NCBI GenBank assembly: GCA_903837605.1
Contig: CAILVF010000087.1
Span: forward strand, 1 to 64,000
Direction: 5' to 3'
DNA from: an uncultured Bacteroidales bacterium
Lineage (GTDB): Bacteria > Bacteroidota > Bacteroidia > Bacteroidales > FEN-979
Length of the DNA: 64,000 bases
Each line of letters starts with the position of its first letter. The stretch's first letter is position 1. The notes beneath the pieces are model-generated. The model was given only the letters and a program-made list of their open reading frames with translations. It searched no databases and was not told the DNA's origin. Both the position numbers and the translations under genes were made by a program. Shown here piece after piece: positions 18,125 through 36,526 of the stretch.

Positions 18125-18187
18125 GTGACTGGTGACTGGTGACAAGTGAACAGGTTCTAAATCGTAAATCGTCATTCGTAAATCGTA
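18125..18187. repeat. Two 7-bp tandem arrays in the nuoM-nuoN gap
   Basis: Units GTGACTG, GTGACTG, GTGACAA and GTGAACA run from 18125. After one transitional unit come AATCGTA, AATCGTC, ATTCGTA and AATCGTA (18160-18187). The two families are unrelated in sequence but share the exact 7-bp period. Both contain stop codons when read around the 21-base cycle, and both lie in non-coding DNA. Confidence 0.85.
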
Positions 18188-18189
18188 AA

Positions 18190-19638
18190 TTATCTTATAA
18201 CTCCTATTATCTGTCCCACGCCGTTCTCGGCCAGCTTCATAAACATCCCCGGAGCAACACCTATCCAAAGTACCATGATCACGATGCCGATCAAAGGTAT
18301 CATTTCCTTCCAGCTGAGATCGGTGAAATTTTCGGTGACCGCATTTGTATTTCCAAGCATCACCCTCTGGTACATCCACAACATGTATACTGCGCTGAAA
18401 ATTATCGTCAGCCCGGCAACAGCCGCATAAAGCCAGTAATATTTAAACAGGCCAAGCAGGATCAGGAATTCTCCCACAAAGCCATTGGTCAATGGCAAAG
18501 CCACGCTTCCAAGCAATATGATCATGAAAATTACGGCCAGGCGGGGCGCTTTAAGGGCAATGCCTCCAAGCTCTCCGATGCTGGTGGTTTTTGTCCTTAC
18601 TTCGATATACTGAATAATGATAAAAAGCCCGACAATATTGATCCCGTGCGATACCATCTGTATTATGGCTCCCTGCATGGCCTGGGAATTCAATGCCATG
18701 GCGCCTGCTGCAACCAGTCCGAGATGGGCAATGGAAGTATAAGCGACAAACCGCTTCAGGTCATCCTGCCGGATGGCAATCAGGGAAGCATAAACAATTC
18801 CGACCAGGGGGAAGATAATAAAAAGCCCGTCGGTCCTGTTCAACACCGAATATGTTATCGGTATCATCCAGCGGATCATCCCGAACAATCCCATTTTCGA
18901 CATCAGTCCGCCAAGCAGCATACTGCCTGAATATGGCGCCGTTACATACGTATCGGGCTGCCAGGTATGGAAAGGAAAAACGGGAACCTTGATGGCAAAC
19001 GCGATAAAAAAAGCGAGGAAGACCCAAACCTGTTCCGCCGGGTTAAGGTTGTTGGCATAAAGCCAGATATGATCGAAAGAATGGGGAAGCGGGGTGCGGA
19101 AATACAGGAAAATAATGGCTACCAGCATTAAAAGGCTGCCGGTGAAGGTGTATGCGAAAAATTTTAATGTTATGCGGATGCGGTTTTCCCCTCCCCAGTA
19201 TGCTGCTATGAAATAGGCTGGTATCAGGGTGAGCTCCCAGAAAATGTAAAATACCATGCCGTCGAAAGCAGTGAAAACACCCACCAGCCCGGCCTGCATC
19301 AGGATGATCAGGCTGTAAAACGTTGAAGACCTGGCAACTTTCTGGGTGAAAGAAGAATAAATAATAATGGGTATCAGGAAGGTTGTCAGTAAGGTCATCA
19401 GCATGCTTAGTCCGTCCATCCCGAATTTCAGGCTGATGCCATAACCGGACAGCCATTCAAAACGGAAGAGCAGCTGGCAATGGCAGTACAGGAAATATTG
19501 CACAAGAGCTGCAATGGAAATGCCGAACTCGACCAATGCCGCCGCCAGCGCAAGGTTCCGGGCCCATCTTTCGTTCCTGACGAAGAAGAGGGAGATCGAG
19601 ACCAGCAATGGCAATACTATCAGTATCAGGGTCAGCAT
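18190..19638 (-). CDS. nuoM: NADH-quinone oxidoreductase subunit M
   Basis: This is a proton-translocating antiporter-like subunit of the complex I membrane arm, 482 residues with about 14 transmembrane helices. Conserved features include FFIFWELTLIPAYFI-type helix 5 with its Glu (YIFWELTLIP), the loop PVFPFHTWQPDTYVTAP, and the lysine-bearing broken helices around RFVAYTSIAHLGLV. Its ATG overlaps the nuoL stop by one base, implying coupled translation. Confidence 0.96.
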   Translation of the reverse strand: MLTLILIVLPLLVSISLFFVRNERWARNLALAAALVEFGISIAALVQYFLYCHCQLLFRFEWLSGYGISLKFGMDGLSMLMTLLTTFLIPIIIYSSFTQKVARSSTFYSLIILMQAGLVGVFTAFDGMVFYIFWELTLIPAYFIAAYWGGENRIRITLKFFAYTFTGSLLMLVAIIFLYFRTPLPHSFDHIWLYANNLNPAEQVWVFLAFFIAFAIKVPVFPFHTWQPDTYVTAPYSGSMLLGGLMSKMGLFGMIRWMIPITYSVLNRTDGLFIIFPLVGIVYASLIAIRQDDLKRFVAYTSIAHLGLVAAGAMALNSQAMQGAIIQMVSHGINIVGLFIIIQYIEVRTKTTSIGELGGIALKAPRLAVIFMIILLGSVALPLTNGFVGEFLILLGLFKYYWLYAAVAGLTIIFSAVYMLWMYQRVMLGNTNAVTENFTDLSWKEMIPLIGIVIMVLWIGVAPGMFMKLAENGVGQIIGVIR

Positions 19639-21563
19639 CAGAGAATAATATTAAAAAACAAAATCAGAATGATTCCGATGATCATGAAAAACAGGTACAC
19701 CCCAACATTCCCGGCCTGGAGGTAACGAATGATGTTGCTGAATTTAATGACCGTGTTACCCGTGCCGTCAACGATGCGGTCAATGAACTTAACCTCGACG
19801 AACCGGTGCAGTGCACCGGAAAGCCATAATGCCGGGCGAACGAAGATGGCATCATATATTTCATCTACATAGAATTTATTTTCAGCCAATCTAATGAACA
19901 CATTCTTTGATCCTGCATCCTGCATCCCGTTTCCCGTTTCCCGTTTCCCGTTTCCCGTTTCCAGCATCCCGAACTTCCGGTAAGCTCTGAATGCCATCAG
20001 CAACACAAGAAAGATTACCAAAACGATATTGAACCATTCCCTTTTTTCCGGGACAAGCAGGTGCTGAACCTGGTTGAGCTTTAAAGCATCCGCGAATACC
20101 GGGGCCAGGAATTCCTTAAGTATCCCTTTCCCTCCCATGAGTTCAGGGATGTTCAGGAAACCGCCTGAAAATGCAAGAACTGCAAGTATGAGCAGGGGAA
20201 GGGTCATTACTGCAGGGGATTCGTGCAGATGTGTTTTCTGATGTTCACTACCGCGGAAACTCCCGAAAAAAGTGAGATATAAAAGGCGGAACATGTAGAA
20301 GGCAGTCATCATGGTTACAGCCACTGCGATAATCCACATCGATTGCCCTGCGCTGAACACCCCGGCAAGGATCTCGTCCTTGGAAAAGAAACCTGAAAGC
20401 GGGGGCAATCCGGCTATAGCCAGTGTGCCGACCAGGAAAGTCCAGAATGTTTTTGGCAATGCATTCTTCAGTCCGCCCATTTTGCGAATGTCCTGTTCCC
20501 CTTCCATGGCGTGGATCACGCTGCCTGCCCCCAGGAAAAGCAGGGCTTTGAAGAAAGCATGTGTCATGAGATGGAACATGGCGCCCGTAAAAGCCCCGAC
20601 GCTGAGGGCAAGGAACATATACCCCAGCTGGCTGATCGTTGAATAAGCCAGCACCTTTTTAATATCGTTCTGGAAGATGGCTATGGCCGCCGCAAGAAAC
20701 ATGGTTGCAAGAGATGTAATTCCTATGATTTCCATTGTCGCAGGTGCAAGAACGTAAAGCACCGATGACCGTGCTACCATGTAAACACCGGCAGTGACCA
20801 TGGTTGCAGCATGGATGAGGGCAGATACCGGGGTAGGACCGGCCATTGCATCAGGGAGCCAGGTATACAGTGGGATCTGGGCGCTCTTGCCAACAGCTCC
20901 TACAAACAGCAGAAGGGTAATGGCAATCATGGTTCCCGAACCGGGAGCCATGGTCTTCGCAATGTCGAAGACGTTTATATAATTGAAACTCTTGAAGTTT
21001 AAAAAGATCAGGAATATCCCCAGGAGGAATCCCAGGTCGCCAATGCGGTTCATGATAAACGCCTTCTTTGCCGCATTGTTGAACTGCTGGTTTTTAAACC
21101 AGAAACCGATCAGCAGGTATGAACAAAGCCCCACCCCTTCCCATCCTATGAACATCACTGCATAATTCGCGCCCATCACGAGGATCAGCATGAAAAAAAT
21201 GAACAGGTTCATATAGGCGAAGAAACGGTTGAAGCCTTCGTCATGCGACATATACCCTGTTGAATATACATGTATGATAAACCCTACACCTGTGATGATC
21301 AGCATCATCAGTATTGAGAGTGGATCGATAAGGAAATCAAACCCCACCATGAAGCCGCTGAAGGAGAGCCAGGGGAATAAATGAATATTGAATATTGAAT
21401 ATCGAATGTTGAACAGGAGGATGATCGACAGAATAAACGAAAGAAATGTTGTGCCAGGGCCGAGGATGGAAGCAACACGCTTTGGAATGCTGCGATAACC
21501 AAGGCCCAGGATGATGAATCCCAGAAGCGGTAAAAGAGGAATTAATGTTATCAATATCTTCAT
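19638..21563 (-). CDS. nuoL: NADH-quinone oxidoreductase subunit L carrying two repeat-derived inserts
   Basis: This is the distal proton-pumping subunit of complex I, with the long lateral helix. The 641-residue product shows the family blocks FIGWEGVGLCSYLLIGFW, PLYTWLPDAMAGPTPVSALI and YSTISQLGYMFLAL. Two segments are encoded by 7-bp arrays. Near the N-terminus, FNIRYSIFNIH lies in the loop before the third helix region. Near the C-terminus, ETGNGKRETGNGMQDAGS lies in the linker before the last conserved segment (FYVDEIYDAIFV). Both are in frame and in loops, so the protein is probably functional. Confidence 0.95.
   Translation of the reverse strand: MKILITLIPLLPLLGFIILGLGYRSIPKRVASILGPGTTFLSFILSIILLFNIRYSIFNIHLFPWLSFSGFMVGFDFLIDPLSILMMLIITGVGFIIHVYSTGYMSHDEGFNRFFAYMNLFIFFMLILVMGANYAVMFIGWEGVGLCSYLLIGFWFKNQQFNNAAKKAFIMNRIGDLGFLLGIFLIFLNFKSFNYINVFDIAKTMAPGSGTMIAITLLLFVGAVGKSAQIPLYTWLPDAMAGPTPVSALIHAATMVTAGVYMVARSSVLYVLAPATMEIIGITSLATMFLAAAIAIFQNDIKKVLAYSTISQLGYMFLALSVGAFTGAMFHLMTHAFFKALLFLGAGSVIHAMEGEQDIRKMGGLKNALPKTFWTFLVGTLAIAGLPPLSGFFSKDEILAGVFSAGQSMWIIAVAVTMMTAFYMFRLLYLTFFGSFRGSEHQKTHLHESPAVMTLPLLILAVLAFSGGFLNIPELMGGKGILKEFLAPVFADALKLNQVQHLLVPEKREWFNIVLVIFLVLLMAFRAYRKFGMLETGNGKRETGNGMQDAGSKNVFIRLAENKFYVDEIYDAIFVRPALWLSGALHRFVEVKFIDRIVDGTGNTVIKFSNIIRYLQAGNVGVYLFFMIIGIILILFFNIIL
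19912..19974. repeat. 7-bp tandem array inside nuoL (CCTGCAT/CCCGTTT)
   Basis: Nine heptads in continuous register: CCTGCAT twice, CCCGTTT five times, CCAGCAT and CCCGAAC. The nuoL strand reads this as a seven-residue cycle (ETGNGKR) followed by MQDAG. Neither CCCGTTT nor CCTGCAT yields a stop in any of six frames. Heptads of the same two families occur in the ROK gene (35796-35886) and one of them in the isomerase gene (35329-35350). Confidence 0.92.
21383..21410. repeat. 7-bp tandem array inside nuoL (GAATATT family)
   Basis: Four heptads: GAATATT, GAATATT, GAATATC and GAATGTT. They are transcribed from the stop-free strand as part of the periplasmic-loop region of NuoL. The same heptads flank the four-helix-bundle gene at 21980-22021 and 22380-22449. 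Confidence 0.9.
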
Positions 21564-21656: not shown

Positions 21657-21974
21657 TCACCATTTCAGTTTATTTAAAATATCAATATCTATCGAATGCG
21701 TCGTTTTGTAAATCAGCACAATGATCGCCAGGCCGATCGCCACTTCCGCAGCTGCGACCACCATGATAAAAAATACGAAGATCTGCCCTGCCGGATCGTT
21801 CGAGTAGGCCGAAAAGGCTGCGAGAAGCAGGTTGATGGAATTTATCATCAGCTCTATCGACATCAGGATCATAAGCGCATTCCTCTTGATCAGCACGCCT
21901 ATCACGCCGATGCAAAACAGCATGGAGCAGAACATCAGGTAGTAGCTTATCGGTATGGAGTTCAGGGCGTTCAT
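21657..21974 (-). CDS. nuoK: NADH-quinone oxidoreductase subunit K
   Basis: This is a small complex I membrane subunit (105 residues, three helices) that links NuoJ and NuoN in the proton path. It carries the two conserved membrane glutamates, in LMSIELMINSINLLL and AAAEVAIGLAI. Its ATG lies six bases from the left repeat array of the four-helix-bundle cassette, so its leader consists largely of repeat DNA. Confidence 0.96.
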   Translation of the reverse strand: MNALNSIPISYYLMFCSMLFCIGVIGVLIKRNALMILMSIELMINSINLLLAAFSAYSNDPAGQIFVFFIMVVAAAEVAIGLAIIVLIYKTTHSIDIDILNKLKW

Positions 21975-21979
21975 TTTTT

Positions 21980-22021
21980 GAATATCGAATGTCGAATATT
22001 GAATGTTGAATTAAGAATTAC
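21980..22021 (+). repeat. Left heptad array of the four-helix-bundle cassette
   Basis: Six 7-bp units in register: GAATATC, GAATGTC, GAATATT, GAATGTT, GAATTAA and GAATTAC. The last two encode, on the opposite strand, the final residues and stop of the four-helix-bundle gene. The array is inverted relative to the one at 22380-22449. Confidence 0.9.
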
Positions 22022-22391
22022 TAGATTTCCTTTTCTGAGCGGTTTGAAGACTTTTTACATATATTGAAATAAGTTCATTACATTCCATCAAACATTTTTC
22101 TAACAGTTCTGTATTTTTAGTAAATGGCTTTGCATTGATTATTTTCAACGCAATATGCGTCTCCCGAAGTTCTTTCAATCCAATTTTCATTTTATGCAGG
22201 AAATCACTGATGGATTCCGCGCCTTTTGCTTCTCCGTAATTCAGGGCAGGAGATAATCCTGACCTGATTATTTGTCCTGCAAGATATTTTCCTGCCTGCG
22301 AAGCAGGCATTGATTCAGCCAATGAAATAATCACAATCGAAAAATTGATCAGCCTTTCTTCCAGATCATATTTCCTCTTCTCATTCACCAT
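22011..22391 (-). CDS. Four-helix bundle protein (23S rRNA intervening-sequence protein family)
   Basis: This 126-residue protein fits the small four-helix-bundle family first seen in intervening sequences of 23S rRNA genes and common in Bacteroidota genomes, related to Avd of diversity-generating retroelements. Recognisable parts are DLEERLINFSIVIISLAESMP, the glycine-marked turn KYLAGQIIRSGLSPALNYGEA, and LKELRETHIALKII. The last part before the end is basic. No rRNA is nearby. The gene lies between nuoJ and nuoK, same strand. Both its ends are embedded in inverted 7-bp arrays: the first four codons and the stop are repeat units. The usual guess is nucleic-acid binding; its function is unknown. 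Confidence 0.85.
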   Translation of the reverse strand: MVNEKRKYDLEERLINFSIVIISLAESMPASQAGKYLAGQIIRSGLSPALNYGEAKGAESISDFLHKMKIGLKELRETHIALKIINAKPFTKNTELLEKCLMECNELISIYVKSLQTAQKRKSSNS

Positions 22392-22449
22392 TCGTCATAC
22401 ATTGTTCAACATTAGCCGTTCAACATTCAATATTCGATATTCAACATTC
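22380..22449 (-). repeat. Right heptad array of the four-helix-bundle cassette
   Basis: Ten consecutive 7-bp units in register, ending on the plus strand with AACATTC, AATATTC, GATATTC and AACATTC (minus sense GAATGTT, GAATATC, GAATATT). The first units overlap the first four codons of the four-helix-bundle gene. The final unit overlaps the nuoJ stop codon. It is the inverted counterpart of 21980-22021. Confidence 0.9.
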
Positions 22450-22948
22450 ATATTTGTTCTTTCTTCCCTAACAACACCGCCCCCACCATCGCTGTCAGGA
22501 ACAATATCGAAGAAACTTCAAACGGCAGCATATAATCTCTGTATAAAATCTTCCCCAGTTCCTTTACAAGGCCAATCTGAGTCTCCATCGGATGCTGCAC
22601 AAGGTGCAGGTCATAACCCCTGAAAACACCGATCAGCACCAGTCCCAGCATGGCCCCTGCCGTGATTGCCAATGCTTTCACCCAGATTGGTTTCGGGGAC
22701 CGCTCTTCCTTGTTCAGGTTCAGCAGCATCACGGTAAACAGGAACAGTACCATGATAGCGCCGGCATATACGATAATGTGCACAATGGCCAAAAACTGGG
22801 CGTTCAGCAGAATGTAATGACCTCCTATGGCGAAAAACGTCAGGGTCAGGTAGAGAACACTGTGAATCGGCTTCTTCGACAGAAGCACCATCACCCCGCT
22901 GTATAAAGCGAGGGCCGACAGGAAATAGAATATGTAGTTAGTGAACAT
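22448..22948 (-). CDS. nuoJ: NADH-quinone oxidoreductase subunit J
   Basis: This is a complex I membrane subunit of five helices, 166 residues. The pi-bulge helix region is HIIVYAGAIMVLFLFTVMLLN. Its start overlaps the nuoI stop by 11 bases. Its stop codon lies in the right heptad array of the inserted cassette (reading ATATGAATG), so the last codons may have been reshaped by the array. Confidence 0.95.
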   Translation of the reverse strand: MFTNYIFYFLSALALYSGVMVLLSKKPIHSVLYLTLTFFAIGGHYILLNAQFLAIVHIIVYAGAIMVLFLFTVMLLNLNKEERSPKPIWVKALAITAGAMLGLVLIGVFRGYDLHLVQHPMETQIGLVKELGKILYRDYMLPFEVSSILFLTAMVGAVLLGKKEQI

Positions 22949-27357: not shown

Positions 27358-27484
27358 CCAATTATCCTATTCCAGTTATCCAGTAATCCAGTTATCCAGT
27401 AATCCAGTAATCCAGTTATCCAATTATCCAGCTATCCAGTAATCCAGTAATCCATTAATCCAGTTATCCAGTTATCCAGTTATC
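27356..27484. repeat. 8-bp tandem array filling the nuoE-nuoD gap
   Basis: About fifteen units of ATCCAGTT or ATCCAGTA, with a few variants such as ATCCAATT, occupy the whole gap from the nuoE start codon to five bases before the nuoD stop. The last codons of nuoD contain AACTGGAT, the same unit on the transcript strand. On that strand the cycle includes TAA, so the array cannot be coding there. It is related to the array at 1-142. Confidence 0.95.
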
Positions 27485-35525: not shown

Positions 35526-36526
35526 TATTTCCCCGAAATAAATGGCAGCCGTGAATAAAATGCATCGTCACAAAGCCTTGCAGCTCCTGCAATGCCGGCC
35601 AATTCGCCCAGTTCTGAAAGAAAAACAGGGATGATGCAGCCGTGCTGTTGAAGAGCCAGCCTGAACGGTTTCTCAAAAAGCGAATATGTATTTGCAATAT
35701 TCCCTCCAATGACAAGGCATTCCGCCCCGAATTTCAGCAGCCAGGGAGCAAGAAAATTTCCCATATTGCTCCCAAACTCAGAGAAGATACGTGATCCCGC
35801 ATCCTGTTCCCCGTTTCCCGTTCCCCGTTCCCCGTTTCCCGTTTCCCGTTTCCCGCTTCCCGTTCCCCGTTCCCCGTTCCCCGCCTCCATCTCCACTATA
35901 TCCTTCACTCCTGTAACATCTTTCCCGGTCACAGCCTTATACCTGCCGACAAACCATCTTGTCGAAAAATGATCATCGGCAATGCTGCCCCCATATGGCA
36001 GGTGGTATACGCATCCCGATTCAGGAACCTCAGGGCCTGACTCCACGGGGATGCCATCCGCAATAAAGGCAGAACCGAATCCTGTACCTAATGTAATGGC
36101 CATGCTTTTTCTGAAACCCGACGACCTGCCAGTCCATGCTTCCCCGATGGCAAAACTGGTAGCATCGTTTAAAAACCTCACCGGCACGGAAGCATCAAGC
36201 GCCAGCCTGTCACGGATTTCCTTGCGCACATTGATCCCGTAAAGGCTGTCATATTTCTGCACCCCTTTAAACCAGGCGATGCCCCCGGGATAATCGAAAG
36301 GCCCGGGCATCGCAAAGCCGATCCCGCCGAGATTCTCCTTTCCGATCAGGCTGATGAGTCGGGAAAGGGCTTCAGCCCAGCCCGCCAGGATGAAATCAGC
36401 CGAAGCCCCGCTGTCGACTTCCTCCCTCACCTTAAACACATCTGAAATACTGTGTCCGTCAAGATCCACGGCTACACAGGTAATATGACTACCGCCGATA
36501 TCAGAGCCGATCAGAATTTTTGTCAT
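35525..36526 (-). CDS. ROK family sugar kinase with repeat-derived insert
   Basis: ROK proteins phosphorylate sugars such as glucose, fructose or N-acetylmannosamine, or act as repressors. There is no DNA-binding domain here, so it is a kinase. Motifs are the ATP-phosphate loop DIGGSHITC, sugar-site FLNDATSFAIGEAW and GTGFGSAF. The usual ROK zinc cysteine cluster is absent. Residues roughly 209-245, between VKDIVE and IFSEFGSNMG, consist of about 30 residues rich in G, N, E and R encoded by a 13-heptad array. The insert is in frame. Cotranslated with the isomerase. Confidence 0.87.
   Translation of the reverse strand: MTKILIGSDIGGSHITCVAVDLDGHSISDVFKVREEVDSGASADFILAGWAEALSRLISLIGKENLGGIGFAMPGPFDYPGGIAWFKGVQKYDSLYGINVRKEIRDRLALDASVPVRFLNDATSFAIGEAWTGRSSGFRKSMAITLGTGFGSAFIADGIPVESGPEVPESGCVYHLPYGGSIADDHFSTRWFVGRYKAVTGKDVTGVKDIVEMEAGNGERGTGSGKRETGNGERGTGNGEQDAGSRIFSEFGSNMGNFLAPWLLKFGAECLVIGGNIANTYSLFEKPFRLALQQHGCIIPVFLSELGELAGIAGAARLCDDAFYSRLPFISGK
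35796..35886. repeat. 7-bp tandem array inside the ROK kinase gene (CCCGTTT/CCCGTTC)
   Basis: Thirteen heptads in strict register: CCCGCAT, CCTGTTC, then CCCGTTT and CCCGTTC variants, with CCCGCTT and CCCGCCT. The coding strand reads a GNGERGT/GNGKRET heptapeptide cycle ending in QDAGS. It is the largest coding array in the window and is of the same family as 19912-19974. Confidence 0.93.

Follow-up and report, generated by a model that had tools for sequence, protein, structure and literature searches.

The window, which is the whole 64,000-nucleotide stretch of DNA from an uncultured Bacteroidales bacterium that was analysed, carries on its minus strand a gene for a 126-residue four-helix-bundle (4HB) protein (22011-22391). 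The list of open reading frames and profile matches assigned it to the S23p or 23S rRNA intervening-sequence protein (IVP) family (PF05635, TIGR02436). The left heptad array (21980-22021) is the 3′ arm of the gene, is C-rich on the coding strand and consists of six GAATNNN units (GAATATC, GAATGTC, GAATATT, GAATGTT, GAATTAA and GAATTAC). The right array (22384-22453) is the 5′ arm and is G-rich on the coding strand. The original prediction, a gene framed by inverted GAATRTY arrays that contain its start and its stop, was borne out: the stop codon lay inside the left array, the right array overlapped the first codons of the 4HB gene together with the stop codon of nuoJ, and the arms were 91% complementary (21979-22010 against 22419-22450). 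This inverted pairing was reached in 0 of 1000 shuffles and the period-7 score of each array in 0 of 2000 dinucleotide shuffles. The right array had been described as ten heptads in perfect register; ten units could indeed be read in a 7-nucleotide register, but three of them were degenerate.

The neighbouring genes, both identified by profile matches on the minus strand, were nuoK (PF00420; 21657-21974) on the 3′ side of the 4HB gene and nuoJ (PF00499; 22448-22948), whose locus was compared in relatives, on its 5′ side. With the end of nuoJ at 22448 and the start of nuoK at 21974, the cassette fills the nuoJ-nuoK gap exactly, as had been claimed. Rfam gave no match in 21900-22550, and a profile search found no transposase in the cassette. 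Beyond the two arms, a third, solo GAATRTY array of the GAATATT type was present inside the translated region of nuoL (21382-21413), where it encodes FNIRYSIFNI. Five further arrays of 7 or 8 nucleotides were found in the window, at 1-155, 27371-27484, 19910-19962, 35803-35883 and 18158-18190, with the units ATCCAGTC, TCCAGTTA, TCCCGTT, GTTCCCC and TAAATCG; none of these five had an inverted partner within 4 kb.

Profile and fold both placed the window protein in the family. It matched PF05635 (E=7.6e-10, 39.4 bits, cut-off 33.8) and TIGR02436, 'four helix bundle protein' (E=2.8e-19, 69.3 bits, cut-off 24), above the curated cut-offs, and its AlphaFold2 model comprised four helices with a pLDDT of 86.8. 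The best PDB matches of the model were 2rld and 2gsc, with five chains each; the Avd entry 4dwl matched more weakly (TM by target 0.80), and the model also resembled 8ube_D, an Avd-type match. Structures of the S23p/IVP family have been available since 2006. Ring oligomers are known for this family, and Xcc0516 was reported to be a homopentamer (PMC4990558). The resident protein matched 4HB families only and had no recognisable catalytic domain. Where it could be calculated, dN/dS among the nuoJ-nuoK orthologues was 0.05-0.13, that is, the gene is under purifying selection.

Inverted arms across the protein family

Genes matching TIGR02436 were present in 83 out of 100 relatives, with up to 22 per genome. 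A subset of the 4HB copies from the window genome and its relatives was retrieved and oriented (n=124). Within 200 bp, a period 7/8 array was found upstream of 99, downstream of 93 and on both sides of 83 of these 124 copies, whereas the control ORFs from the same loci showed 11, 17 and 3 out of 76, respectively, a rate that is approximate because the controls were not as numerous and lay at distances above 250 bp. We scored inverted matches as the longest word common to the upstream flank and the reverse-complemented downstream flank. Both flanks shared an inverted word of at least 12 nucleotides in 87 out of 124 copies (70%). The figure was 2% for shuffled pairings, 14% for words in direct orientation and 0% for the controls. 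About 30% of the copies presented no clear arms. The second copy of the window genome (L001, G000:C60:7457-7771) likewise had no clear inverted heptad arms.

The polarity of the arms was fixed relative to the gene. On the coding strand, the 5′ arm contained more G than C in 93 out of 103 cassettes with alignable arms, and array detection gave the same picture, with G exceeding C in 100 out of 111 upstream arrays and C exceeding G in 95 out of 103 downstream ones. Most arms had 4-5 units, and just 9 out of 214 had fewer than four. The unit itself varied widely. Among 121 cassettes, drawn from the relatives and also from other phyla, there were 99 distinct units up to rotation (67 7-mers and 32 8-mers), so that GAATRTY did not hold as a general unit. 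The 7-mers had no common motif beyond composition (information content 3.10, versus 2.92 ± 0.11 in shuffles), and a universal heptad motif was dropped; recognition of such different heptads by one fold is therefore harder to explain. The 8-mer units do share a pattern, for which one clade may account. Inverted arms of a class of their own were also observed around GxxExxY genes (TIGR04256; L192-L221), with scores of at least 14 in 20 out of 30 loci versus 4% of shuffled pairings and with irregularly spaced cores such as CACAGAG, CACGAAG and CGCAAAG.

Inspection of the flanks of other family members, which had been proposed as a check, revealed inverted heptad arms in other copies from this order and across phyla. 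A scan of named genomes yielded 80 loci from more than 15 phyla, including Proteobacteria, Acidobacteria, Chloroflexi, Planctomycetes, Verrucomicrobia, Clostridia, Nitrospirae, CPR and other groups, and 52 of the 80 had an arm score of at least 12 compared to 2.5% of shuffled pairings. The 4HB copies of cyanobacterial plasmids were armed with units such as TAGGGAG and AGGGAAC, which are similar to published cyanobacterial heptads (PMC4692102). The named-genome and plasmid sets each derived from one query and are biased toward its close relatives. Some plasmid cassettes (L411, L417, L412 and L404) lay within operons, at cas6/cas4, cas10/cmr3 and nrdB/nrdA. Carriage by phages was set aside, as 50,697 phage records gave no match.

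Arm units co-varied with the protein. When homologous neighbours were excluded, arm similarity correlated with protein identity (Mantel r=0.32; permutation standard deviation 0.023 and maximum 0.093 in 2000). A unit was held in common by 88% of cassette pairs with at least 70% protein identity and by about 5% of those below 40%. In the clade with AAGTKTT arms, the cassettes were located beside different genes, although several of them lay within clusters for polysaccharides, and such clusters may be transferred as blocks. The protein and its heptad ends belong together across many phyla.

Decay at the nuoJ-nuoK site and dispersed arrays

At the nuoJ-nuoK site the 4HB gene was intact in some genera and truncated in others (L045, L052 and L057), and in many relatives just arrays, or nothing, were left, which answers the proposed search for empty sites and documents the decay from gene-bearing to gene-less forms. 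In G031 (L061), a broken GxxExxY gene replaced the 4HB gene within GAATATT arms. The same gap in G009 (L064) contained inverted octads of the CTCTGTGG type nested in GAATATT arms, with no gene. All full-length nuoJ-nuoK copies fell into one clade across genera g1-g3. This single clade together with the repeated losses indicates that the nuoJ-nuoK copy is old, was vertically inherited within the family and has been lost repeatedly, leaving arrays behind. Vertical inheritance applied to most of the specific copies that we followed, those at accB-accC included, which speaks against mobility. Vertical inheritance, which had been named as a possible refutation, thus applies to this copy within its family, but the architecture recurs at unrelated loci. 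The arms of the nuoJ-nuoK copies were homogenised: left and right arms of the same copy paired better with each other than with those of orthologues (p=6e-4), an excess that points to arm-to-arm correction or strong constraint. No insertion event or excision product was seen at the loci examined, and no target-site duplication was found, the flush arrays hiding the junctions.

Arrays without a gene were frequent. Solo arrays were common in the sampled genomes and were often located directly upstream of start codons. Twelve genomes without 4HB genes had 0 arrays in 308 kb, whereas 4HB-bearing genomes of other families had 13 in 288 kb (4.5 per 100 kb), with an uneven density outside the family of the window, several 4HB-bearing genomes having none in the sampled stretch. 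These densities support a tie between the arrays and the 4HB gene.

Dispersed units matched the arms of the resident gene in several genomes. In Xanthomonas vasicola, the Xcc0516 orthologue is located between accB and accC and has GGGAATC arms; GGGAATC has been described as a dispersed Xanthomonas repeat (PMC4692102), many copies of which form inverted pairs at short distance, with 70 such pairs in Xcc and 75 in Xac. In four genomes of Xanthomonadales, each with between one and three 4HB genes, the numbers of exact GGGAATC doublets were 91, 140, 36 and 88. In Luteimonas salinisoli, most stretches selected by the GGGAATC doublet pattern itself were arm-loop-arm hairpins without a gene. An AAAGC subterminal motif was present at 11 out of 35 inner ends of these gene-less elements, compared to 6.5% expected, and was considered too weak to be called conserved. 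The lepA-lepB gap contained a gene-less hairpin element in five out of five Xanthomonadales genomes (L418-L422), with differing units.

The accB-accC gene occupies the same site in five genomes, with arms of GGGAATC, GGGATTC or GTGATTS. We counted the three units, in this order, in 200 kb per genome, sampled by position except for three stretches of FW106 and L. cucumeris picked for listed matches. The counts were 0/11/0 in Rhodanobacter DHB23 (arms GGGATTC), 8/0/0 in FW106 (GGGAATC), 3/1/0 in X. vasicola (GGGAATC) and 13/0/26 in L. cucumeris (GTGATTS). DHB23 was dropped as an example of a GGGAATC-negative genome without matching arrays, its unit being GGGATTC. Unit matching was not exclusive, since L. 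cucumeris carried many GGGAATC arrays despite its GTGATTS accB-accC arms. The arms of its second 4HB gene also differed from these arrays, and L. cucumeris thus retains, in addition, an older or different array family.

Further examples came from other units in the relatives of the window genome. GTGAC triplets reached 754 matches in G016, which has seven 4HB genes. At least 20 GTGAC triplet matches were found in five out of six genomes with a known cognate cassette versus 3 out of 94 others (p=4e-6), and AAGTKTT triplets were present in five out of six versus 14 out of 94, in both cases with an 'others' group that may hide cognates because some 4HB copies were not retrieved. The original suggestion that protein and ends spread together was partly supported: the units matched the 4HB arms of the same genome in several genomes, but the spread is mainly that of gene-less arrays and not of the gene. 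Matching dispersed arrays in several genomes point to a previously unrecognised repeat-spreading system.

A proposed hairpin-ended element and the competing explanations

We favour, as a reasonably probable reading, that the cassette is a hairpin-ended element in which two inverted arms of 7-/8-nucleotide units, usually four or more each, would flank the gene for a ring-forming 4HB protein that reads the arms and aids the spread of gene-less derivatives through host machinery. The protein would recognise the unit of its own arms, probably with one unit per subunit of a pentameric ring in the manner of TRAP, judging solely from arm lengths, and this recognition would keep both arms homogeneous. 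Gene-less derivatives, namely arm-loop-arm hairpins and solo arrays, would spread in trans via intergenic gaps. Copying and joining may be carried out by host replication or repair, which we propose since no catalytic domain can be recognised in the protein and a reverse transcriptase is dispensable. Within this system, the copy at nuoJ-nuoK would count as old and resident. As for the claim that protein and heptad ends form one mobile unit, the arms track the protein at unrelated loci, but mobility is deduced, with neither a duplication nor an enzyme to mark it. An extension of this reading, which we put forward tentatively, is that the resident ring protein sets the wording of arrays in trans throughout the genome, so that arrays change when the master arms change, somewhat like telomere repeats and telomerase. 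If true, the cyanobacterial and Xanthomonas heptanucleotide repeats would be footprints of 4HB proteins.

Part of these observations could also be accommodated at the RNA level, with the arms pairing in the transcript, the cassette acting as an mRNA intervening sequence or a TRAP-like leader regulator and the solo arrays forming its regulon. As an intervening sequence, the stem would isolate or release the 4HB message, as in 23S rRNA, where the same family and the same layout of an ORF inside inverted ends are found (PMC4990558). The cassette RNA folded with its arms paired (z=-5.4), and cassettes between co-directional neighbours were in sense orientation in 46 cases versus 12 (p=8e-6). The position of many arrays just 5′ of start codons, like that reported for the Beggiatoaceae TAACTGA repeat (PMC4679880), and the ring oligomers of the family (PMC4990558 and the PDB entries) also suit such a role. 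Nevertheless, mismatches between arms were of the G-T type 107 times and of the A-C type 101 times, and selection for RNA pairing was set aside for lack of a wobble excess, in a test that the repeat register weakens. Moreover, an RNA role alone explains neither the dozens to hundreds of gene-less arrays nor the shift of dispersed units with the arms of the master. We regard an RNA-level account as possible but rather unlikely.

It is improbable, in our judgement, that the arrays were made passively by slippage and hairpin template switching, with 4HB genes merely landing or persisting in them and the arrays being insertion sites or by-products. The commonness of solo arrays would fit, as would sites of the L031/L061 type, where another gene, the broken GxxExxY, occupies GAATATT arms, and the arms that GxxExxY genes have of their own; arm-to-arm homogenisation requires no protein. 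However, landing in a direct array predicts direct rather than inverted flanks, and the sampled genomes without 4HB genes had no such arrays. In addition, the unit follows the protein even where the loci are unrelated, and the gene determines which arm is G-rich and which is C-rich.

We give very little weight to the possibility that the 4HB protein is an Avd-like accessory of a trans-acting reverse transcriptase, with arms and arrays copied through RNA. Its fold is similar to Avd (4dwl, 8ube_D), but the proposed search for a reverse transcriptase was negative, as RVT_1 (PF00078) was detected neither in the genome of the window (G000) nor in G001-G005 or in G026 with its 22 4HB copies. Reverse transcriptases were present in 49 out of 83 genomes with 4HB genes versus 7 out of 17 without (Fisher p=0.19); these absences and this test largely refute dependence on a reverse transcriptase as a general requirement. 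The idea that the repeats are incidental and the gene is simply an ordinary part of the nuo operon, passed on vertically, is hardly credible as a full account and was refuted. The single g1-g3 clade under purifying selection speaks for such inheritance of this copy only; the same layout is found again in many phyla and at many loci that are unrelated, and the gene is missing from the same site in many relatives.

Comparison with known systems

Heptad repeats and the 4HB family are each known; within the open literature found, their connection appears to be new. A search of the open literature, which reached into subscription journals and preprints to a small extent, returned no paper connecting heptad arrays with 4HB proteins, and the papers found give no function for heptanucleotide arrays or for S23p/IVP proteins. 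Linking the two supplies each with a testable partner. If the hairpin-ended element is the correct reading, the role of the 23S intervening-sequence protein would become directly testable and much of the intergenic repeat DNA of environmental bacteria would be explained. A protein that reads and maintains heptads would represent a repeat-spreading system unlike those driven by transposases or reverse transcriptases. Its repeat code would vary from one subfamily to another and could change across a whole genome.

The 23S rRNA intervening sequence has the same protein family, and its ORF likewise lies between inverted ends that can pair into a stem (PMC4990558). The window cassette has this layout, but it is located between nuoK and nuoJ and not in a 23S rRNA gene. 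While the 23S element lies within rRNA and has a single terminal repeat, the cassettes occupy intergenic or operon gaps and have tandem 7-/8-mer ends, many different units and dispersed gene-less copies. The arrays also resemble the cyanobacterial STRR, Xanthomonas GGGAATC and Beggiatoaceae TAACTGA repeats, which are dispersed, mostly intergenic heptad arrays (PMC4692102, PMC4679880). As far as these papers were searched, they name no cognate protein or element; for TAACTGA, located upstream of start codons, a post-transcriptional binding site was proposed (PMC4679880). The arms of the 4HB gene between accB and accC are, in addition, built from the Xanthomonas GGGAATC unit. The Avd protein of diversity-generating retroelements has a similar fold (4dwl, TM by target 0.80); unlike Avd, the 4HB genes show no association with reverse transcriptases.

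TRAP is an 11-mer RNA-binding ring that reads regularly spaced short G-containing repeats. Binding of repeats by the 4HB ring is proposed by analogy with it, the folds being unrelated and the ring being a pentamer instead of an 11-mer. In REPIN/RAYT (REP-associated tyrosine transposase) systems, one or few genes share their ends with many gene-less hairpins, and the sequence of the dispersed copies follows that of the gene in the genome. The likeness lies in gene-less copies with the same ends being found in the same genome. The resident protein of the cassette is, however, a non-catalytic 4HB protein and not an HUH/Y1 transposase, and its ends are tandem arrays whose unit varies between subfamilies. 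By this analogy, our reading of the cassette is a system of the REPIN/RAYT kind in which a ring protein without catalytic activity would take the place of the transposase.
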